Origin: Acidocella sp.
GTDB lineage: Bacteria > Pseudomonadota > Alphaproteobacteria > Acetobacterales > Acetobacteraceae
NCBI RefSeq assembly: GCF_028687955.1
Contig: NZ_JAQTZC010000017.1
Span: forward strand, 1 to 32,661
DNA: 32,661 nt
Direction: 5' to 3'
The notes under the pieces are model-generated. The model did not search any database. It saw only the letters and a program-made list of their open reading frames with translations, and had not been told where the DNA came from. Below are positions 14,552-29,033 of the stretch, piece by piece; positions within the stretch are counted from its first letter, which is position 1; each line of letters starts with the position of its first letter. The position numbers were made by a program, and so were the translations under genes.

Positions 14552-15448
14552 TCAGCGTTTTGTCTTGCCTCCCCGGCGGGTGCGCGGGGTCAGGGTAATC
14601 TGGAAAGCCTCCAGCGGCGCCAGGGTATCGCCCTCGCAGGTCTCATCATTACCGGCAGGCCCCGCGCTGGTGCCGCCGACGAAGCTGGCCGAGCAGCTCA
14701 CCTCATAATTCTCCGCAGCCTCGCCGCTCAGGCGGATGCGCAGGCCGAGCAGCGGCAGGGCCATCCCTCGCGAGCCGCAATACTGCCCGGCTTCCACCCA
14801 GGGGGAGAGCCAGCCGCGGCCAAGCACGGCCTGGTATGATAGATCCGCCGGGTTGATCCCTTGCGGCGCATTGAGCGCAAACCCCTCGATCCAATTTTGG
14901 CTGCCACGCTCGCCCATCCATGTGCCAAACTTCGCGCCGACATCGCCGCGCGTCTGAATATGGGCCATCATGTCCATGACCTCAGGCGCGGCCGCCGCGG
15001 CGGGCGCCGGTGCGGCGGCGGGGGCATTGGCGGGGGCCACCGGCATGTCGGCGGCGGTGAGCAGCTGGCGCACCTGTAGTTTAGGCGCCGCATCAGGCAT
15101 GTTGGGCAGTTGATACACGGTCACAAGCACCTGCGCCGGTCCCTTGCGGATGCGCACCAGCGCCGCATCGCCGCCGGCGTTCATCCAGCCATCAGCGCGA
15201 AAGCCCGAGATTTCCACATCCTGCCCCCCGGCTGGCGGCGGCGAGATGCGCACGCCGGGCATGCCGTTGTTCTGGCTGGCGGCGGGATTTACCTCATTAA
15301 CGATACAAAACAACCCAGCGGGCAAGGTCATCAGATGCCCCGAAACCTTGAGCTCCTGTACAGTTGTCTGGTTGTTGCCGGCAGCAGGTTCCGCAGCTGG
15401 TTGCGGCGAAGATTCTGCGGGTTTTTGTGCTTGTTTTACCTGAGCCAT
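14552..15448 (-). CDS. Uncharacterised protein with ChW (clostridial hydrophobic W)-like region
   Basis: 298 aa; WIEGFALNAPQGINPADLSYQAVLGRGWLSPWVEAGQYCGSRGMALPLLGLRIRLSG resembles ChW repeats; Ala/Pro-rich linker; no obvious signal peptide. Confidence 0.6.
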   Translation of the reverse strand: MAQVKQAQKPAESSPQPAAEPAAGNNQTTVQELKVSGHLMTLPAGLFCIVNEVNPAASQNNGMPGVRISPPPAGGQDVEISGFRADGWMNAGGDAALVRIRKGPAQVLVTVYQLPNMPDAAPKLQVRQLLTAADMPVAPANAPAAAPAPAAAAAPEVMDMMAHIQTRGDVGAKFGTWMGERGSQNWIEGFALNAPQGINPADLSYQAVLGRGWLSPWVEAGQYCGSRGMALPLLGLRIRLSGEAAENYEVSCSASFVGGTSAGPAGNDETCEGDTLAPLEAFQITLTPRTRRGGKTKR

Positions 15449-15552: not shown

Positions 15553-18330
15553 TTATCCGTGGGTTGGCATCCAGTTCAGCAAAATATCATTAATCCGTTG
15601 CACCGGCAGGCCAAGCGGCAAAGTCAGGCCCCGCCCGCTCGCGCGCAGCCGCTCGGCCTGGGCGCCAAGGTCGAACGTCACGGCGTAGAGTCCGGCGCGC
15701 CAAGCTTCCCCGAGTGCGAAACACCAGGTTTCCGGCCAGATCGAGGGTAAAAATGCGAGGTCCGGCGCAAATCCGGCGATCAAGCTTTGCGCCTCGCCCT
15801 CCTGATAATGCCCGGTGACGAAAATGCGCCCCGTGGCGAGCAGCCGCTCGTCATCGGCGCTGCCCCCCGCGACGATGAATTCCAGCGCCAGGCCCCGTGC
15901 CGCCGCATCCTCGGCGCAGGCTGTCAGCAGCTCAAAGCCCTTGGCCGGGCCTATGCCGCCAATCACGATGATGCGCCGTGCCCCGGTGCCGGGCGGGCGC
16001 GGCCGGGCGGGCAGGGAGTCATCCTCCCAGGGAACAACCCGCGCCACGACGCCGGGAAAATGCCGCGCGATCCGCTTCGCGGCATCGGCGGAGGGGACCG
16101 TGATCCGCGCCGCCCCGGCGAACTCGGCGGCCGAGCGTTTGAGCAGGGCAGGGACGCCGCGCGCCTCGTAAATGCCGGTGGGGTCGCGCGCGCAGCACGT
16201 GATGCAGCCGCGCACGTCCGGTTCGCCGCAATAACGCGGCGGGGCATCGGGTTCCGGGCGGGTGAGCAGGTTCACGCGCGGGCAGAAGCTGGCGTAATCA
16301 TGCACCACGATCTCCTGCGGCACGCTCAGCGCCTTGGCCAGCGTGCGCACTCCCGGGTGGTGTCCAAGCGTGTGGTGCAGAATAACCCTTTGCACGCCTA
16401 AGGTTTTTAACAGGCGCAACAGCGCCGGGCGCTCTCGCGGCAGGGCGTAGGCGAGGTTGGGCGTATCCTTTGGGCTGCCCTCGCTCAGCAGCGCGGGCCA
16501 GGGATAGGGCGTGTTCAGCGGATCATTGGGAAATTGCGTGAGCAGCAGCAACGGGCGCAGGCCTTGCGCGCGCCGCGCCGCCATATCGGCCTCCACCTGC
16601 CGGGCCACGCCCCCGCCATGGCTGTGCGAGATCAGCAGCACGCTCTCGCGCCCCGCCTCCGCGCGCAGCCGGGCGGCATCCAGCTTTGCCCTCGCCGGGC
16701 GTAGCGGATCAGCGGCGATGAAACACCTCACCAGCTCATGATACCCCGGATACAGCCGCTCCAATATGCCAAGGTTGCGCAACGTCAGCCCATGCGCGGC
16801 GGCGCGGAAGGAAACCCCGCCCGCATGTGCCACATACGCCCCCAGCGCGGCCTGGTGCCTGAACCCTTTGTGGCGCGCGCGCAGGCACCAGTCATTTTCC
16901 TCGCCATAGCCCTGCGCGAAAATCCCGGGCCGCAACCCGCCCACCGTCCGCAGGCAGTCGTGCCGCAGATACATGCAGAACCCGACCCCGGTGGGAATTT
17001 CCAGGCTCCGGCTCCCGTTGCTCCGCCGCGCCAGCGCGTCCAGCGCCACCGCGTCCGCGAGGCTGGGCATCGGGTTGCCGCCGCGCGGGTCCGGGTAGCT
17101 TAAAATTGACGCCTCATTGGCAAAGGGTGTCACCGAGCCGGTGGCGGCATCGGCATAGGCCACCGCACGCATGGTTTTCACAGCACCCGGGGGGAGCAAA
17201 ATGTCGCTGTTGAGCAGCAGCACGTCATCCCCGGCGGCGGTGGCCAACCCGGTGTTCACCGCGGCGGGAAAGCCCTGGTTGGTTTCGTGGCGGCGTAAAA
17301 CAACGCGCCCCGCCGCCGCCAGCCCGTCCAGCCAGGCGGCCAGTTCTGGCTCGGGCGAGGCGTCATCCACCACGATGACCCGTGCCAGTCCCGCCACGGC
17401 GAACACGCTCTCCAAACAGGCTTTGGTCTCTTCCAGCCCGCGATAGGCCGGGATCACCGCGCTGATTTCCCGGCGCGCGGGCAGTCGGGCGCGCCCCCGG
17501 CCGCGCTGTGCCGCCGGGCGGGGGGTAATGGCGGCGAGCGCGCCTGGGTCCAGCGGGCTGCCCGCTATATGGCTCCCATCAGGACCGCTGAGCGTGAACG
17601 GCGGGGTCAGCCCCGCCAGCGTGCGCGGCGCGATTTTGAAGCCATGGCGCGGCAGCAGCGGCACATCGTCATCGGCGGGCAGAATTTTACCGAATTTCAC
17701 CGCGCGGCGATGCCCGGCCGCATCGCGCAATGTGAGCCGTGGCGGCGACTCCGGCGCGGCCGGGCGGAAGGCCCAGCCGCTGATTCCCCCATCGCCAGCC
17801 AGCGCCGCCAACCCTTCAACACGCATAAGCGCCGCCTGGTCCAGCGGCGCGCCGAGCAACCGGCCTTCGCCCAGGCCGTGCAGTTCACCTTCTGCGTCCA
17901 ACCCGCAAAAACCATCATACCCGGCGGCGGCGGCAATCTGCCCGGCAAGGGCGGCAAATCCTGGTTCATCGGGCAGGCAATGGCGTGCCAGCAGGCAATT
18001 CAGCGCCGCCGCCGCGCCGCGCGCGTCGCCTTGCCTGAGCTTGGCCATGGCCAGCCCAAGCCAGGCGGCCGCTGAGTCGTAACGCTGCGCGACACGTTCA
18101 AAATCCACCTCGGCGGCTGCAATATCCCTCGCGCCGCCGCTCAGGCGCAGCCGTGCAAGGTCTAGCGTGATCCGCGGGTCACCCGGCGCCAGCCGGGCGG
18201 CGCGTTCCAGCCAGGGGATGCTGGCCTCGTCCAGCCCGCGCTTCCACGCCGCCGCCGCGTCACTCCGTGGCGGAGGCTTCAGCTTCAACTTCAGCTTCAA
18301 CTTCAGCGCTGGCTTCCTGCGCCGCTTCAC
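15553..18330 (-). CDS. Large bifunctional glycosyltransferase (N-terminal TPR-like, GT2, C-terminal GT4)
   Basis: SAVIPAYRGLEETKACLESVF, VIVVDDASPEPEL, NQGFPAAVNTGL, LLLNSDILLPPGAV (GT2); RIIVIGGIGPAKGFELL and WPETWCFALGEAWRAGL (GT4). GTG start. Confidence 0.88.
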   Translation of the reverse strand: MKRRRKPALKLKLKLKLKPPPRSDAAAAWKRGLDEASIPWLERAARLAPGDPRITLDLARLRLSGGARDIAAAEVDFERVAQRYDSAAAWLGLAMAKLRQGDARGAAAALNCLLARHCLPDEPGFAALAGQIAAAAGYDGFCGLDAEGELHGLGEGRLLGAPLDQAALMRVEGLAALAGDGGISGWAFRPAAPESPPRLTLRDAAGHRRAVKFGKILPADDDVPLLPRHGFKIAPRTLAGLTPPFTLSGPDGSHIAGSPLDPGALAAITPRPAAQRGRGRARLPARREISAVIPAYRGLEETKACLESVFAVAGLARVIVVDDASPEPELAAWLDGLAAAGRVVLRRHETNQGFPAAVNTGLATAAGDDVLLLNSDILLPPGAVKTMRAVAYADAATGSVTPFANEASILSYPDPRGGNPMPSLADAVALDALARRSNGSRSLEIPTGVGFCMYLRHDCLRTVGGLRPGIFAQGYGEENDWCLRARHKGFRHQAALGAYVAHAGGVSFRAAAHGLTLRNLGILERLYPGYHELVRCFIAADPLRPARAKLDAARLRAEAGRESVLLISHSHGGGVARQVEADMAARRAQGLRPLLLLTQFPNDPLNTPYPWPALLSEGSPKDTPNLAYALPRERPALLRLLKTLGVQRVILHHTLGHHPGVRTLAKALSVPQEIVVHDYASFCPRVNLLTRPEPDAPPRYCGEPDVRGCITCCARDPTGIYEARGVPALLKRSAAEFAGAARITVPSADAAKRIARHFPGVVARVVPWEDDSLPARPRPPGTGARRIIVIGGIGPAKGFELLTACAEDAAARGLALEFIVAGGSADDERLLATGRIFVTGHYQEGEAQSLIAGFAPDLAFLPSIWPETWCFALGEAWRAGLYAVTFDLGAQAERLRASGRGLTLPLGLPVQRINDILLNWMPTHG

Positions 18331-20095
18331 TGGCCGGCGGCGTCAGCGCGTCAAGATCGCCCCGCGCCTCGGCGATGCCACCGTTCAGCGCCTCGGTGAA
18401 CCAGTGTCTGGCTGCGTCCAGATCAACCTCGGTGGCGATGCCCCGCGCCAGATAGCGGCCCAGCATGAGGCAGGCCAGCGGATGCCCGCGTCCGGCGGCG
18501 GCGCGGTAACAGGCGAGCGAGAGCGCGCGGTCGGTGGGGATGTCGTGCCCGCCGCCATACATGGCGCCCAGCGCGAACATGCCCCTGGCATCACCCCGGT
18601 TGGCGGCACGCTCATAGAGTTGCCGCCCGGCCTCGTGGTCGCGCGGCCCGCCGGCACCCGTCAGGCACATATCAGCCAGGGCGATCAGCCCGTCCGGCAA
18701 CTCGACATCGGCGCATTTCTGTAGCCAGACCCGTGCTTCCTCTGGGTTGGCATCCACCCCAAGGCCTTGCGCGAGCATAATGCCGTACCAGTATTGCGCG
18801 TTCAGCACGCTCTCGGCGGCGCGGCGCATCCACTTGGCAGCGCGGACTTCATCGCGCTCCATCCCCACGCCCTGGGCCAGGCAAACCGCGTAGTTGAACG
18901 CGGCGATCAAATCGCCCGCTTCGGCCGCCTGCTCAAACCATTCATGCACCGGCGCCGGTTCGGTCAGCTTCGGGCTGGTCTGGCCGCTGAGCAGTAGGGA
19001 GGCAAGGTCGGCCTTCGCGGTCTCGTCGCCCGCCTCGGCGGCGCGGCGGAACCAGATGGCGGCTTCATCCGGGTTGCGCGGCACGCCGGTGCCGGTGAGG
19101 TAGAGCAGCCCCAACGCCCTGGCGCTGGGGCGATGCCCTAGTTCGGCGGCCGTGCGGAACCATGTGGCGGCTTCGGCGTAGTTGGGCGGCAACTTGCCGT
19201 CGCCGCGCGCGTATATCTCGGCGACCAGCGCGGCCGCCTCCGGGTCCCCCGCCAACCCGGCGCGGCGCAGCCAGGATTCCCCCTCAACCTGGTTGGCCTT
19301 GATGCCGATGCCGTTGAACAGCATGTAGCCGTATTTCGCCTGCGCGTTGGAGAGATTGGCCTTGGCGGCGACCCCGTAATGCTGCGCCGCCAGCGCCGGG
19401 TCGGCCGGCAGGTTAACCCCCATGTCATAGAGCAGGGCGAGGTAATAATGCGCGGCGGGCAGTTCCGCTTCGGCTGCCTGGCGAATATGTGCGATGGCTT
19501 CCTCAGGCGCACCGCCCGCGGCATGGCGCAATAGTGTAATCCCGAGGCCCAGATGCCCCTGCGGCGCCCCAGCCTGCGCGGCTTTCTCAAACCAGGGCAG
19601 CGCCTTGGCATCATCGCGCTGCGGCCATTTCGGGTTGGAATAGATGAACCCGGCCATCAGCTGCGCGTCGGTGTCGCCAGCCTCGGCGGCGGGCAGTGCC
19701 CAGCGCAAGGCGGTGCTGAAATCGGGCTCCTGGTCTTCAGCTTCCGCAGCCGCCGCCTGCGTGAACAGCAAGGCCCCGGTGAGCGCCGCGGCATCCTCGC
19801 GCATGCCGAACATATACAGCCCGGCCAGATTCCGGCAGGCCGCCATGTCACCCTTTTCCGCCGCGCGCAGAAACCAGCGCGCCGCCTCCACGGCATTGCG
19901 CCGAACCCCTTCGCCGGTCAGGTAATGCCGGCCAACCTCGCGTTCGGCCTCCGCGATTCCCGCCTGCGCCGCGACGTTGAACAGTTTGAGAGCCCGTTCA
20001 AATTTCCGCTCCGCATACAGCGCATGCGCGCGCGTGAGCGCGCTTTGCGGCTTGCGCGCGGCCATACGGTCCGCAATATCATCTTTGATGCTCAT
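18260..20095 (-). CDS. SEL1-like (TPR-type) repeat protein
   Basis: Many SEL1 units, e.g. AAEAGDETAKADLASLLLSGQ, YARGDGKLPPNYAEAATWFRTAAELGHRPSARALGLLYLTGTGVPRNPDEAAIWFRRAAEAGD. Confidence 0.93.
   Translation of the reverse strand: MSIKDDIADRMAARKPQSALTRAHALYAERKFERALKLFNVAAQAGIAEAEREVGRHYLTGEGVRRNAVEAARWFLRAAEKGDMAACRNLAGLYMFGMREDAAALTGALLFTQAAAAEAEDQEPDFSTALRWALPAAEAGDTDAQLMAGFIYSNPKWPQRDDAKALPWFEKAAQAGAPQGHLGLGITLLRHAAGGAPEEAIAHIRQAAEAELPAAHYYLALLYDMGVNLPADPALAAQHYGVAAKANLSNAQAKYGYMLFNGIGIKANQVEGESWLRRAGLAGDPEAAALVAEIYARGDGKLPPNYAEAATWFRTAAELGHRPSARALGLLYLTGTGVPRNPDEAAIWFRRAAEAGDETAKADLASLLLSGQTSPKLTEPAPVHEWFEQAAEAGDLIAAFNYAVCLAQGVGMERDEVRAAKWMRRAAESVLNAQYWYGIMLAQGLGVDANPEEARVWLQKCADVELPDGLIALADMCLTGAGGPRDHEAGRQLYERAANRGDARGMFALGAMYGGGHDIPTDRALSLACYRAAAGRGHPLACLMLGRYLARGIATEVDLDAARHWFTEALNGGIAEARGDLDALTPPASEAAQEASAEVEAEVEAEASATE
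18275..18307. repeat. 12-bp tandem repeat (AGCTTCAACTTC) coding in two frames
   Basis: Two exact units 18281-18304 plus partials; minus strand encodes EVEAEVEAEA (SEL1 C-terminus) and LKLKLKLK (GT N-terminus). Confidence 0.85.
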
Positions 20096-20101
20096 GGCGT
20101 C

Positions 20102-21529
20102 TTATGGCTCATGCATGCTCTGGTAGACCACGGGCAGTATCTGCCGCATGAAATAGGCAAGCATCGTGCGCTGCCCAACCTTCACATCCGCCTCCACCGG
20201 CATGCCCGGCATCAGGTGGAAGCCCGGCGGAACATTATGCAGGTTCAGCACGTCGATCGAAATCTGTGCCCTGTAGAACAAATCATGCGGGGCGTTGGGC
20301 AACGGCACGCCGTTCACCCCATAGGCCTGCTGATCGAGCGGGTTGATGCTCTGCGGGCTGATGGAGGTCACCGTGCCGAACATCTGGCCATATTGCAGAT
20401 ACGGGAGCGTGTCGAGCTTGATGGCAACCGGATTTCCGACCGAGACATAACCCGATTGCGACCCGTCGATATCGACCTCGACGCTGAGCGGCGCATTCAC
20501 CGGGGTCAGGTCCATGAAGCTCTGCCCGCTTTGTAGCTGGCTACCCACCGAGACAGGCGCAATCGACTGCACAATGGAATCCTGCGGCGCGGTCAGCACC
20601 ACCAGCGAGTTGTTCAGCTTCGCCTTGGCCAGCGCCTGCTGCGCCTGCGCCAGATTGTTGAGCGCGGTGGCCAGCTGCTGCGAGATATTGGCCTTCCACT
20701 GCTGGATCGAGCTGTCGCGCTGGGCGGTTACCGAGGCAATCTGCTTTTCCGCCGCCTTGGCGGAAGAAATCGCGCTTTCGAGCGACGCCTGCATGCCGAC
20801 CCTGTCATCCGTGGCGGCCAGAGTGGCCAGTTTGCTGCCCACCTGCAACTGCTGCAAATCCTTGCGCATGGCCTCCACATTCGTGGCAATGCCGAGCCGT
20901 TGACGATAATAGGCCGCCTGTTGGTTATATCCTTTAATCTGAGTCTGCAGCTGGTTTATCTGCTGGTCGTAATACTCCACCGTGGAGTTATACTGGCCGA
21001 TCTGCTGGTTATAGGTCTGCAACGCCAGTGTGGCGGCCGGGTTGTTGGGGTCGCCGTAATAGGGCTGGCCGTTTTCCTGGGCCTGCAACTGCGCCACCTG
21101 CGCGGCGTAGCTTTGCTGCTGCTGGGTCAGCGATGTCAGATCGGCCTCGGCATAGGTCGGGTTCAGCGTCGCCAGTACCTGCCCCTTGGCGACGAACTGC
21201 CCCTCATGCACGTTGATGCTCTTGAGGATGGAGGCCGTCGAATCAGCGGCAAACGCCTGCACCACCGTATCGGGATCGGCGGAGACCAGCGTGCCGCTGG
21301 AGGTGACGAGCTTGTCAACCGGCATCACGCCCGAGGCGGTGAGGCCCGAGAGCACAAGCGCGCTGACGAACCAGTTGATATAGCGCCCCGTGAACGGCAC
21401 CGGCGTGGCGATGACAGCCGCGGTCGGCGACTGAAACTCCAGCACCGCCAGCGGCAGCGTCTCGGCCTTGGCCAAGGCGTTGGCCGGAGCAAACGTCTTA
21501 GGCAATAGTCGGCTTAGGCGCAGCAGCAT
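20102..21529 (-). CDS. HlyD family type I secretion periplasmic adaptor
   Basis: MLLRLSRLLPKTFAPANALAKAE..., one TM, VDKLVTSSGTLVSADPDTVVQAF, ILKSINVHEGQFVAKGQVLATLNPTYAEADLTSL, coiled-coil, GMPVEADVKVGQRTMLAYFMRQILPV. Confidence 0.93.
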   Translation of the reverse strand: MLLRLSRLLPKTFAPANALAKAETLPLAVLEFQSPTAAVIATPVPFTGRYINWFVSALVLSGLTASGVMPVDKLVTSSGTLVSADPDTVVQAFAADSTASILKSINVHEGQFVAKGQVLATLNPTYAEADLTSLTQQQQSYAAQVAQLQAQENGQPYYGDPNNPAATLALQTYNQQIGQYNSTVEYYDQQINQLQTQIKGYNQQAAYYRQRLGIATNVEAMRKDLQQLQVGSKLATLAATDDRVGMQASLESAISSAKAAEKQIASVTAQRDSSIQQWKANISQQLATALNNLAQAQQALAKAKLNNSLVVLTAPQDSIVQSIAPVSVGSQLQSGQSFMDLTPVNAPLSVEVDIDGSQSGYVSVGNPVAIKLDTLPYLQYGQMFGTVTSISPQSINPLDQQAYGVNGVPLPNAPHDLFYRAQISIDVLNLHNVPPGFHLMPGMPVEADVKVGQRTMLAYFMRQILPVVYQSMHEP

Positions 21530-23780
21530 GGGCGTTTCCTTGTGGGTCGAGATGGCGGTTCTGTTGCAGCCACAAATGGCGATAAATGGCACAACGCTCC
21601 ACGAGTTCGTGATGCGTGCCGATATCCACGGTGCGGCCGCGATCCAGGACCATGATGAGGTCGCAATCAATCAGCGAGGACAGCCGGTGCGAGACGATCA
21701 CCATGGTCCGCCCCTGCGCGATTCGCAGCATGTTGGCGTTCACCAGCGCCTCGCTCTCGGGGTCCAGAGCGGAGGTCGCCTCATCGAGGATCAGCACCTT
21801 CGGGTCGGAGATCACCGCGCGCGCAATCGCCAAACGCTGCTTCTGCCCGCCCGAGAGGTTGGGCGAACCTTCCTGGATGAATGTGTCATAGCCCTGCGGC
21901 AGGCGCTCGATGAATTCCTCCGCCCCGGCCAGCCGCGCGGCCCGCACCGCGTCCTCAAAGGAGAGCCCCGGCCGCCCGGCGATGATATTATCCTTCACCG
22001 AGCCGCGGAAGAGGAAGTTGTCTTGCAGCACCATGCCAAAACTCTTGCGCAGATGCCGCAGATTTATCTCGCGCATATCCGTGCCGTCGATCTTGATGGC
22101 GCCCGAATAGTCGCGGTTGATCCCTTGCAGCAGCCGCGTGACGGTTGATTTCCCCGAGCCCGAGCGCCCCACCAGCCCCAGCATGGTTCCCGCCGGGATC
22201 TTGAAGCTCATCTTGTCCAGCGCGGGCGTCTTGGAGCCTTCATAGCTGAAGGTTACATCGTCGAACTCAACCGCGCCCTCAAAACGCGGCCGCAGCCCGT
22301 GGGTCAGCGCGCGCTTCTCATTCGGCCGGTTCAAAATCGAGCCAACCTGCCAGATCGCGGCCTGCGCCCTCTGCACGTCCTGCATCACCGTCGCCAGGCT
22401 CACCAGCGGTCCCGCCACCCGTCCGCCGAGCAGCATGTAGCCGGTGAGCGCGCCAATATCGAGCGGGTTGTTGGAGTTCATGGCGATATAGGTGCCAAAG
22501 ATCATCACCCCGTACTGGCTGTAACGCTGCAGGGGCATCACCAGCATGGCCGGCCAGTTCGCCAGCTGGCCCATCTCCATGCCCAGATTGGCCGAGGTGG
22601 CAACCTTGCGGTCCCAGTCAGCCGCCCGGGTCGGCTCCAGCGCCAGCGCCTTCACCGTGCGGATGCCGTAAATGGTCTCGACCAGCACCGAGCCCTTGGC
22701 CGATTCCGCGGCGATCAGCTTGCCGGTCATGATCCCCAGCGGACGCAGGAAGATGCCGATGATCACCGCGATCAACGCCGCGGCGATCAGCACGGTCCAA
22801 GCCATCGGGGCGCTCATATAAAACAGGATCGGCAGCAGCAGCGCCACCATGAACACATCGATGAAGGTGTTCATCAGCCGCCCGGTTAAAAACTCGCGGA
22901 CCTGATAAATCTGCTGCACCTTATAGGTGAGCACGCCTGCCTGTTCACGTTCGAAAAACTCAATGGGCAGCGAGACCAGCCGGTCAAAAATCCGCAGGTT
23001 GAGCCGCGCGTCGAGCTTGGTGGCGATCATCACCTCCAGCAGCTTGCGCCCGAAAGTCAGGATCATCTCAAAGCCGGTGGAGAGAATGATCAGCACCGTC
23101 ACCAGCGCCAGCGTGTTCCAGCTATGGTACTGGATGACCGTGCCGATAACCCGCATCACCATAAAGATCGGGATGATGCTGAGCACGGTGATGGTGATGG
23201 ACGCGATGCCGATATCGCGCAGTAGCGCCCGGTCTGACCATACCAGCCGGGCCAGCATGGTAAAATTGAAAGCCTCGTCGTCCGGACTGCCCTCGCGCGT
23301 GGCGCGTACGAGCAGGGTGGCGCCGCTCCAAAGCTGTTTCAGCCGCAACTCATCCACCGGCATCGCCGGGTCGCTCACCCGCCCGCGCGGGTCACGTAGC
23401 AGCAACACCTGGTTCTCCGGGTCACGCCCGGTCACCAGCGCCGCGCCGCCATCGTCGAGCAGCAGGATGATCGGCGCGGCATCCTCAATTCGCATCAGCT
23501 GGCGGAAGGTCATCGGCGTCCCGCGCGCCCACAGCCCGGCGTCCTTCAGCCAGTCAAGCAGAACCAGCGGGGAGGGCGCGGCGTCATCGGGCTGCAGCCG
23601 CAGGTTTTCAGGGTTCAGTTCAACGCCATGGTAGCGCGCCACATTCATCACCGCGGTCAGCCGGGCCTGCACCAGGGGGCTGACGTTGATCTCGGCATCC
23701 ATCAGCGCCGCCATGTCCAGGTTGGGCGCGCCATGGTCCGCGGCGGAATTCGCGCCCGGATCGCGCTGCGTATCGTTCAT
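21498..23780 (-). CDS. Type I secretion ABC transporter (C39-like + TM + ATPase)
   Basis: GLVGRSGSGKSTVTRLLQG, SGGQKQRLAIARAVISDPKVLILDEATSALDPESE, IVSHRLSSL; N-terminal ~130 aa C39-like region lacking Cys. Confidence 0.94.
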   Translation of the reverse strand: MNDTQRDPGANSAADHGAPNLDMAALMDAEINVSPLVQARLTAVMNVARYHGVELNPENLRLQPDDAAPSPLVLLDWLKDAGLWARGTPMTFRQLMRIEDAAPIILLLDDGGAALVTGRDPENQVLLLRDPRGRVSDPAMPVDELRLKQLWSGATLLVRATREGSPDDEAFNFTMLARLVWSDRALLRDIGIASITITVLSIIPIFMVMRVIGTVIQYHSWNTLALVTVLIILSTGFEMILTFGRKLLEVMIATKLDARLNLRIFDRLVSLPIEFFEREQAGVLTYKVQQIYQVREFLTGRLMNTFIDVFMVALLLPILFYMSAPMAWTVLIAAALIAVIIGIFLRPLGIMTGKLIAAESAKGSVLVETIYGIRTVKALALEPTRAADWDRKVATSANLGMEMGQLANWPAMLVMPLQRYSQYGVMIFGTYIAMNSNNPLDIGALTGYMLLGGRVAGPLVSLATVMQDVQRAQAAIWQVGSILNRPNEKRALTHGLRPRFEGAVEFDDVTFSYEGSKTPALDKMSFKIPAGTMLGLVGRSGSGKSTVTRLLQGINRDYSGAIKIDGTDMREINLRHLRKSFGMVLQDNFLFRGSVKDNIIAGRPGLSFEDAVRAARLAGAEEFIERLPQGYDTFIQEGSPNLSGGQKQRLAIARAVISDPKVLILDEATSALDPESEALVNANMLRIAQGRTMVIVSHRLSSLIDCDLIMVLDRGRTVDIGTHHELVERCAIYRHLWLQQNRHLDPQGNAHAAAPKPTIA

Positions 23781-27263: not shown

Positions 27264-28808
27264 ATGGCGGACCAGACGGAACAACAAATTCTCGCGGCCG
27301 ATGCCGCGACCCTGCACAAAATGGGCTACGCGCAGGAACTTTCCAGGCGCATGCATGGGTTTTCAAATTTTGCCGTATCATTCTCCATCATCTGCATCCT
27401 GGCTGGCGGCATCACCTCCTTTCAGGTCGGCTTCTCCACCGGCGGCGGGCTCACCGCCATTGTCGGCTGGATCGCGGGCTGCACTTTCGCGCTCATCGTC
27501 GGCCTCTCCATGGCGCAGATCGCCTCGGCTTACCCCACCGCGGGCGGCCTCTACCACTGGTCTTCCATTCTCGGCGGGCGCGCCTGGGGGTGGATCACCG
27601 CCTGGTTCAACCTGCTGGGCCTCATCTTCGTCATCTCCTCGGTGAACGTCGGGGTCTACAACCTCGGCGTCGGGCTGATCCTCAATAATATTTTCGGCAT
27701 CAACACCTCCGCCTGGGGTTTTGAGCAGCAGACCCTCGCAGTCGTCTGCATCACCCTGGCCCAGGGGCTGCTCAATCATTTTGGCATCCGCACCACGACC
27801 AAGCTGATTGACTTCTCCGGCGTGCTCATTCTGGTCATCGCCGTGTTGCTGACCGGTGTGATGCTCTTCGGCGTCCAGCATTTTGATTTCTCACGCCTCG
27901 TCACCTTCACCAACTACTCAGGCGATGCCGGCGGCGGCGTGGTGCCGCATGCCTCCAGCCCGTTCTACCTGTTCCTGCTGGCGCTGCTCTATCCGCTCTA
28001 CACCGTCACCGGGTTTGACGGTTCAGCCCACACCTCGGAAGAAACCGTTGACGCCCGCCGCAACGTGCCGCGCGGCATCCTCAATGCCATCATCTGGTCG
28101 GCCGTGTTCGGCTTGGCGATGGCCGGCGCCTTCGTCCTGGCGATGCCCGACCAGGCAAAAGCCGCGGCCGCCGGCGGCAACGTCATCTTCAACCTGATGG
28201 CCTCGCTCACGGTTCCCAACTGGATCAAGGATATTCTCTATGTTGGCATCGTGCTGGCCAATTTCCTCTGCGCCCTGGCGGGCGTCACCTCCACTTCGCG
28301 CATGGTCTATGCCTTCTCGCGTGACGGCGGCCTGCCCGGCAGCAAATGGCTCAAGCAGGTGAATGAGACGCATCGTTCGCCGGTCTACGCCATCTGGTTC
28401 ACCGTGGTGCTCTCCATCGCCTCCACGCTGTACTCCCCGGCCTTCGCGGCTCTGGCCGCCGGCTGCGCGATGTTCCTCTACATCTCCTACGCCATGCCGA
28501 TCCTTGCCGGGCTGTTCGCCGAGGGCAAAACCTGGACCGAGTTCGGCCCCTTCCGTCTGGGCGCCTTCTCCAAACCGCTGGCGCTCATCACCAGCGTCGG
28601 CGGCATTGTCATCATCTACATCGGCACCCGCCCCCCTAACAACATTCTGGACAGCTACTTCATCGGTCTGCTCGGGATCATGGCAATCATCTGGTTCGGC
28701 ATCGCCCGCACCCGCTTCCCCGGCCCGCCGATCGGCGCCGCCGCGGTTGCCGCCCGCGCTGCTGAAATCGCCGCCGAGGAAGCCGCCCTGCGCGCTTCGT
28801 CTGACTAG
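27264..28808 (+). CDS. APC family amino acid/amine permease
   Basis: MADQTEQQILAADAATLHKMGYAQELSRRMHGFSNFAVSFSIICILAGGITSF... multi-TM; GFDGSAHTSEETVDARRNVPRGILNAI. Confidence 0.92.
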   Translation: MADQTEQQILAADAATLHKMGYAQELSRRMHGFSNFAVSFSIICILAGGITSFQVGFSTGGGLTAIVGWIAGCTFALIVGLSMAQIASAYPTAGGLYHWSSILGGRAWGWITAWFNLLGLIFVISSVNVGVYNLGVGLILNNIFGINTSAWGFEQQTLAVVCITLAQGLLNHFGIRTTTKLIDFSGVLILVIAVLLTGVMLFGVQHFDFSRLVTFTNYSGDAGGGVVPHASSPFYLFLLALLYPLYTVTGFDGSAHTSEETVDARRNVPRGILNAIIWSAVFGLAMAGAFVLAMPDQAKAAAAGGNVIFNLMASLTVPNWIKDILYVGIVLANFLCALAGVTSTSRMVYAFSRDGGLPGSKWLKQVNETHRSPVYAIWFTVVLSIASTLYSPAFAALAAGCAMFLYISYAMPILAGLFAEGKTWTEFGPFRLGAFSKPLALITSVGGIVIIYIGTRPPNNILDSYFIGLLGIMAIIWFGIARTRFPGPPIGAAAVAARAAEIAAEEAALRASSD

Positions 28809-29004
28809 AGCGCGATCGTTTGAGGCTCGCTCGCCTGGGCGAGCCGAAAGCGTGAATCGCCCTCGGAAAAATGGCCAGAGCGCGATCGTTTGAGGCTCGC
28901 CCGCCTGGGCGAGCCGAAAGCGTGAATCGCCCTCGGAAAAATGGCCAGCGCGCGATCGTTTGAGGCTCGTTCGCCTGGGCGAGCCGAAAGCGTGAATCGC
29001 CCTC
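28807..29004. repeat. Tandem repeat, about 3 x 70 bp, each unit with a hairpin
   Basis: GCGCGATCGTTTGAGGCTCGYYCGCCTGGGCGAGCCGAAAGCGTGAATCGCCCTC recurs with cgcgatcgtt at 28811, 28881 and 28951 (exact 70-bp period). Confidence 0.95.
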
Positions 29005-29033
29005 AAAAAAACGGCGCCGTAAGGCGCCGTTTT
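29004..29033. terminator. Bidirectional intrinsic terminator
   Basis: caaaaaaaCGGCGCC-gtaa-GGCGCCGttttc: A-tract and T-tract flank a 7-bp GC stem between convergent genes. Confidence 0.88.

Follow-up and report, generated by a model that had tools for sequence, protein, structure and literature searches.

A tandem repeat inside a probably ordinary out-of-frame overlap of a Sel1-repeat gene and a glycosyltransferase gene in Acidocella

Overlapping and coupled genes described so far

Unidirectional phase-1 overlaps are formed by adjacent genes on the same strand whose reading frames differ by +1. They arise when a stop or a start codon shifts into the neighbouring gene (Fonseca et al. 2013, PMC3887535; Huber et al. 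2023, PMC10666635). The junction considered here, between a Sel1-repeat gene and a glycosyltransferase (GT) gene of Acidocella sp., shares the strand, the adjacency and the phase with these overlaps, and the lengths of -29, -41 and -71 that can be assigned to it all belong to the expected -8, -11, -14... series. It differs from them in harboring a short tandem repeat that is present in different copy numbers in sister species.

Two other kinds of junction are also relevant. Termination-reinitiation pairs are characterized by GTGA or ATGA junctions (PMC6728339, PMC10666635). The same two genes meet in such a junction in four relatives (loci L010, L011, L012 and L014), whereas the start in the window and its clade is most likely a TTG located 29–41 bp before the stop. 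Finally, long overlaps can result from start misprediction (category i of PMC2478687). All of the 715 co-directional overlaps of more than 60 bp examined in that study corresponded to categories of error, with 409 (57%) being 5' extensions of the downstream gene, and weak start codons were over-represented. The longest version of the present overlap has the same profile, with more than 60 bp, a weak start and a downstream alternative giving a product of orthologue length, but here an overlap of 29–41 bp persists even with the better start.

Gene layout and distribution of the junction

The window, i.e. the whole stretch of 32,661 nucleotides that was analysed, carries a tightly packed cluster in which an ABC transporter gene comes first, followed by genes for an HlyD-family protein, the Sel1-repeat protein and the GT. 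No relevant description of an ABC-HlyD-Sel1-GT system turned up in a literature search. The junction was compared in a table of 69 loci, mostly from Acetobacteraceae, with the Sel1-GT pair being syntenic in about 65 of them. In these relatives, the genes are usually separated by a short gap or share a GTGA/ATGA overlap of 4 bp, and a repeat-bearing forced overlap is found only in L001–L004, corresponding to the window species, G010, G022 and Acidocella aquatica (G008). The main features are as follows.

21498..23780, minus strand: type I secretion-type ABC transporter gene (Pfam ABC_tran and ABC_membrane)
20102..21529, minus strand: HlyD-family type I secretion adaptor gene, likely ATG start at 21529 (TIGR01843, E=2.9e-90, above cutoff)
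18260..20095, minus strand: Sel1-repeat (SLR) gene, 611 aa (ORF; Pfam Sel1, E=1.7e-74)
15553..18300, minus strand: GT gene as read from TTG 18300, the favoured start (GGAAG-N12-TTG shared by the four overlap species)
18328..18330, minus strand: GTG, longest-ORF start of the GT gene, judged unlikely (TTG in L003, absent in L004, no Shine-Dalgarno)
18313..18318, minus strand: AGGAAG, weak Shine-Dalgarno-like element within the Sel1 gene
18277..18307, minus strand: 12-bp tandem repeat GAAGTTGAAGCT (minus-strand reading), 2.6 exact copies (TRF, 100% match, score 62)
18298..18300, minus strand: TTG, candidate GT start giving a 41-bp overlap (anti-SD dG -4.3; SD-like AGGAAG 12 nt upstream)
18286..18288, minus strand: TTG, candidate GT start giving a 29-bp overlap, product (M)KLKPPPRSDAAAAWKRG (nearest to the orthologues in length)
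18260..18262, minus strand: TGA, stop codon of the Sel1 gene (GAG TGA)

The HlyD gene is located directly upstream of the Sel1 gene, with a 6-bp gap before the Sel1 start. The best NCBIfam match of the ABC transporter product is TIGR01846, but it scores under the cutoff of this model. The GT product is composed of an N-terminal repeat-like region, a GT2 domain and a GT4-like domain. Downstream of the GT gene, a gene at 14552–15448 (minus strand) has a match to Pfam ChW (Clostridial hydrophobic W; E=4e-7), which is unexpected for an alphaproteobacterium. Elsewhere in the window, a 70-bp repeat that contains a palindrome (GGCTCGCTCGCCTGGGCGAGCC core) occurs in three tandem copies at 28807–29015 (plus strand), which are followed by a terminator-like hairpin. 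With about 49 matches scattered across the 2.1-Mb genome, this repeat resembles a dispersed family of the REP/BIME type.

In a tree of the GT proteins, the four overlap species group together, along with G015, whose Sel1-GT junction is cut by contig ends and was not assembled. The next branch is G032, where an ATG is located 36 bp after the Sel1 stop. The relative frame of the two genes varies among relatives, being +1 in the window, +2 in L010–L012 and L014, and 0 with a stop in L005 and L020. Another junction of the same cluster provides a measure of what is usual. In 20 of 33 relatives, an ATG is located 26–41 bp inside the ABC transporter gene at the ABC-HlyD junction; overlaps of about 30–40 bp are therefore normal in this cluster. 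In the window, the probable HlyD start, ATG 21529, lies 32 bp inside the ABC gene (21498–21529), a conserved arrangement, while the longest HlyD ORF, starting at a TTG, gives 173 bp, so that this overlap is overcalled in the same manner as the one discussed below.

Two open frames and a 12-bp repeat

The GT frame is open from the GTG at 18330 across the 3' end of the Sel1 gene, in +1 relative to the Sel1 frame. Both frames are jointly open over 83 bp, the GT frame being open from -83 relative to the Sel1 stop. The two genes thus lie on the same strand, out of frame and with shared bases, in more than one genome, these being four sister species only. The in-frame GT starts are GTG 18330, TTG 18300 and TTG 18288, followed by GTG 18108 and ATG 18048; beyond the Sel1 stop, GTG 18108 is thus the first available ATG, GTG or TTG. 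Since GTG 18108 and ATG 18048 fall inside the conserved N-terminal domain of the GT, some overlap is forced.

The 12-bp array is exact over 31 bp, i.e. 44% of the 71 bp counted from GTG 18330, so the original prediction was right about the repeat, but not in describing the overlap as made of it. The array is the sole match in the genome, even when three mismatches are allowed. Its lag-12 exact run covers 19 bases, against a maximum of 13 in 60 first-order simulations, and 8 exact arrays of such length with a 12-bp period were counted in 280 kb of the window genome: it is non-random yet not unusual. G010 carries exactly one unit more than the window, and both of its reading frames are longer by four residues, whereas A. 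aquatica and G022 harbor degenerate versions. This comparison supports the prediction of slippage by a single 12-bp unit with both frames preserved. No relevant publication came up in a literature search for overlapping genes whose tandem repeats are coding in either frame.

Codon adaptation and log-odds analyses gave no clear coding frame in the overlap (CAI of 0.55 vs 0.56, both at about the 14th percentile), and the predicted mRNA structure across the junction is not special (z -1.14). The distal part of the overlap differs in both frames between the window and G022. Over the last 29 bp, the codon changes between the window and A. aquatica are 4 synonymous and 1 nonsynonymous when read in the GT frame, and 0 synonymous and 3 nonsynonymous in the Sel1 frame, all being very small counts. 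Tiny as these numbers are, they suggest that the GT leader beside the domain is constrained and that the Sel1 tail is not.

The start codon of the glycosyltransferase gene

The GT most likely starts at a TTG within the repeat, either 18300 or 18288, rather than at GTG 18330. TTG 18300 is preceded by AGGAAG (dG -4.3), a better SD-like site than those of the other two in-frame candidates, although this element is weak and its spacing to the TTG is long. The GGAAG-N12-TTG arrangement is homologous in L002, L003, L004 and the window, hence in 4/4 overlap species. With TTG 18288, the product comes nearest to the length of orthologues such as MKLKPGSAVEAWTKG. In the protein alignment, the starts of the orthologous GTs fall on codon 18282, which corresponds to the final Leu of the KLK run and lies two codons downstream of TTG 18288; this codon is CTG in the window and TTG in A. 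aquatica. When the four species are aligned from the Sel1 stop, no TTG column is common to all of them, the TTG being at -29 in three and at -23 in A. aquatica. Both TTGs are located inside the 12-bp repeat, and either may serve as the start.

The alternative, a start at GTG 18330, would give a true 71-bp overlap and a longer basic leader, but it appears unlikely. The frame is indeed open from -83, and this column holds a start codon in three of the four species, as GTG in the window and G010 and as TTG in G022. However, it is not a start in A. aquatica, it lacks Shine-Dalgarno pairing (dG -1.7), and the resulting N-terminus (MKRRRKPALK...) extends 14 or more residues beyond those of the orthologues in the protein alignment, whereas the downstream starts TTG 18288 or 18300 give an orthologue-like length. 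Comparable far-upstream starts also arise by chance, as potential starts at least 60 bp inside the Sel1 gene were counted from the junction table in 16 of 61 other orthologous pairs, and overlaps of more than 60 bp are usually start mispredictions (PMC2478687). The original prediction had taken GTG 18330 as the start and was probably mistaken on this point. The out-of-frame overlap that it described is real, but its 71 bp are counted from the first in-frame start and the overlap likely covers about 30–40 bp. The junction is therefore probably an ordinary same-strand phase-1 (+1) overlap of consecutive genes, of about 29–41 bp.

Opposite charges of the two readings

The Sel1 frame of the overlap reads ...EVEAEVEAEASATE* with a net charge of -8, and the GT frame reads VKRRRKPALKLKLKLKLKPPPRS... 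with a net charge of +11. The acidic and basic readings proposed earlier are thus real, but they follow from the genetic code: a GAR codon (Glu) followed by a G-initial codon is read as AAG or AGG in +1, and 64/64 codings of EVEA yield K or R at alternate +1 positions. Other Glu-rich stretches from the same genomes behave alike, with 98% of 107 windows (15 proteins) reaching +3 or more. As the opposite charges result from reading GAR-GNN DNA in the +1 frame, they carry no information on pairing.

It could nevertheless be imagined that the Sel1 tail, which is acidic, pairs electrostatically with the basic leader of the GT, the overlap keeping their lengths matched and the repeat acting as a co-evolving docking device. 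Both tails are one unit longer in G010, and the last ~26 codons of the Sel1 gene are Glu-rich, with residues 586–611 predicted to be disordered (pLDDT < 50, AlphaFold2) at the end of an otherwise confident solenoid that extends to residue ~585. In PMC10666635, very short overlaps are reported to be generally enriched for subunits of heteromeric complexes. Against this, the complementarity is forced by the code, also in unrelated Glu-rich stretches; around 60 orthologous pairs are syntenic without tails; and the distal tail is unconserved in either frame between the window and G022. The lack of complementary tails in orthologues had been named beforehand as one observation that would refute the proposal, and such tails are indeed absent outside the four-species clade. 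Electrostatic pairing is thus left unsupported, the K/R residues being unavoidable in +1 for (EVEA)n, and such a docking device seems very improbable. The same holds for the bolder proposal that a slippage-prone repeat within an overlap lengthens two interacting proteins in step, their opposite charges being ensured by the code and a single mutation adjusting both halves of a docking interface together with the position of the downstream start; we give it hardly any credence.

Two further explanations can be dismissed. A +1 ribosomal frameshift in the repeat producing a Sel1-GT fusion protein was rejected as exceedingly unlikely, since, despite the two frames being open together over 83 bp, their relative frame differs among relatives, no conserved slippery site is present and no fused homologue was seen among the tabulated loci. 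An assembly or sequencing artefact within the repeat, conceivable in a genome fragmented into 122 contigs, is almost certainly not involved and was rejected because three further assembled genomes, among them that of the isolate A. aquatica NBRC 112502, share the junction with its relative frame.

Probable origin of the overlap and possible translational coupling

In the preferred scenario, the ancestral GTGA/ATGA junction would have been lost in the four-species clade through a nearby indel that altered the relative frame. The Sel1 gene would then have been read past the old GT start and into the GT leader, and a TTG would have been taken up as the GT start, the direction of these events being deduced. 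Gain of repeat units may finally have lengthened the Glu-rich tail in step with the basic GT leader, which presumably had an ancestral tip of the MKxK type.

Translational coupling of the two genes is plausible, by analogy with several relatives that have the classical coupled GTGA/ATGA arrangement and because no strong Shine-Dalgarno site exists at the GT junction. Initiation of the GT would probably be aided by ribosomes that have only just translated the Sel1 gene or terminated on it. The distance range for termination-reinitiation (-8 to +10 nt) accommodates the junctions of L010, L011, L012, L014 and L009, while that of the window (-29 to -41, or -71) lies outside it. The strong distance dependence described in the consulted parts of PMC10666635 applies to gaps, and the reporters described there were at short distances, not in a 29–41 bp overlap.

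Meaning of the junction

The junction is thus probably an ordinary unidirectional overlap that carries a small in-step repeat, and its striking features are explained by the choice of start codon and by the genetic code. It serves as a caution in two respects: overlaps derived from longest ORFs frequently arise by chance when a genome is GC-rich, dual-frame repeats of opposite charge follow from the genetic code, and neither should be over-read. It also offers a tidy example of how a longer overlap and an internal repeat arise, in a single clade whose outgroups retain the likely ancestral 4-bp junction.
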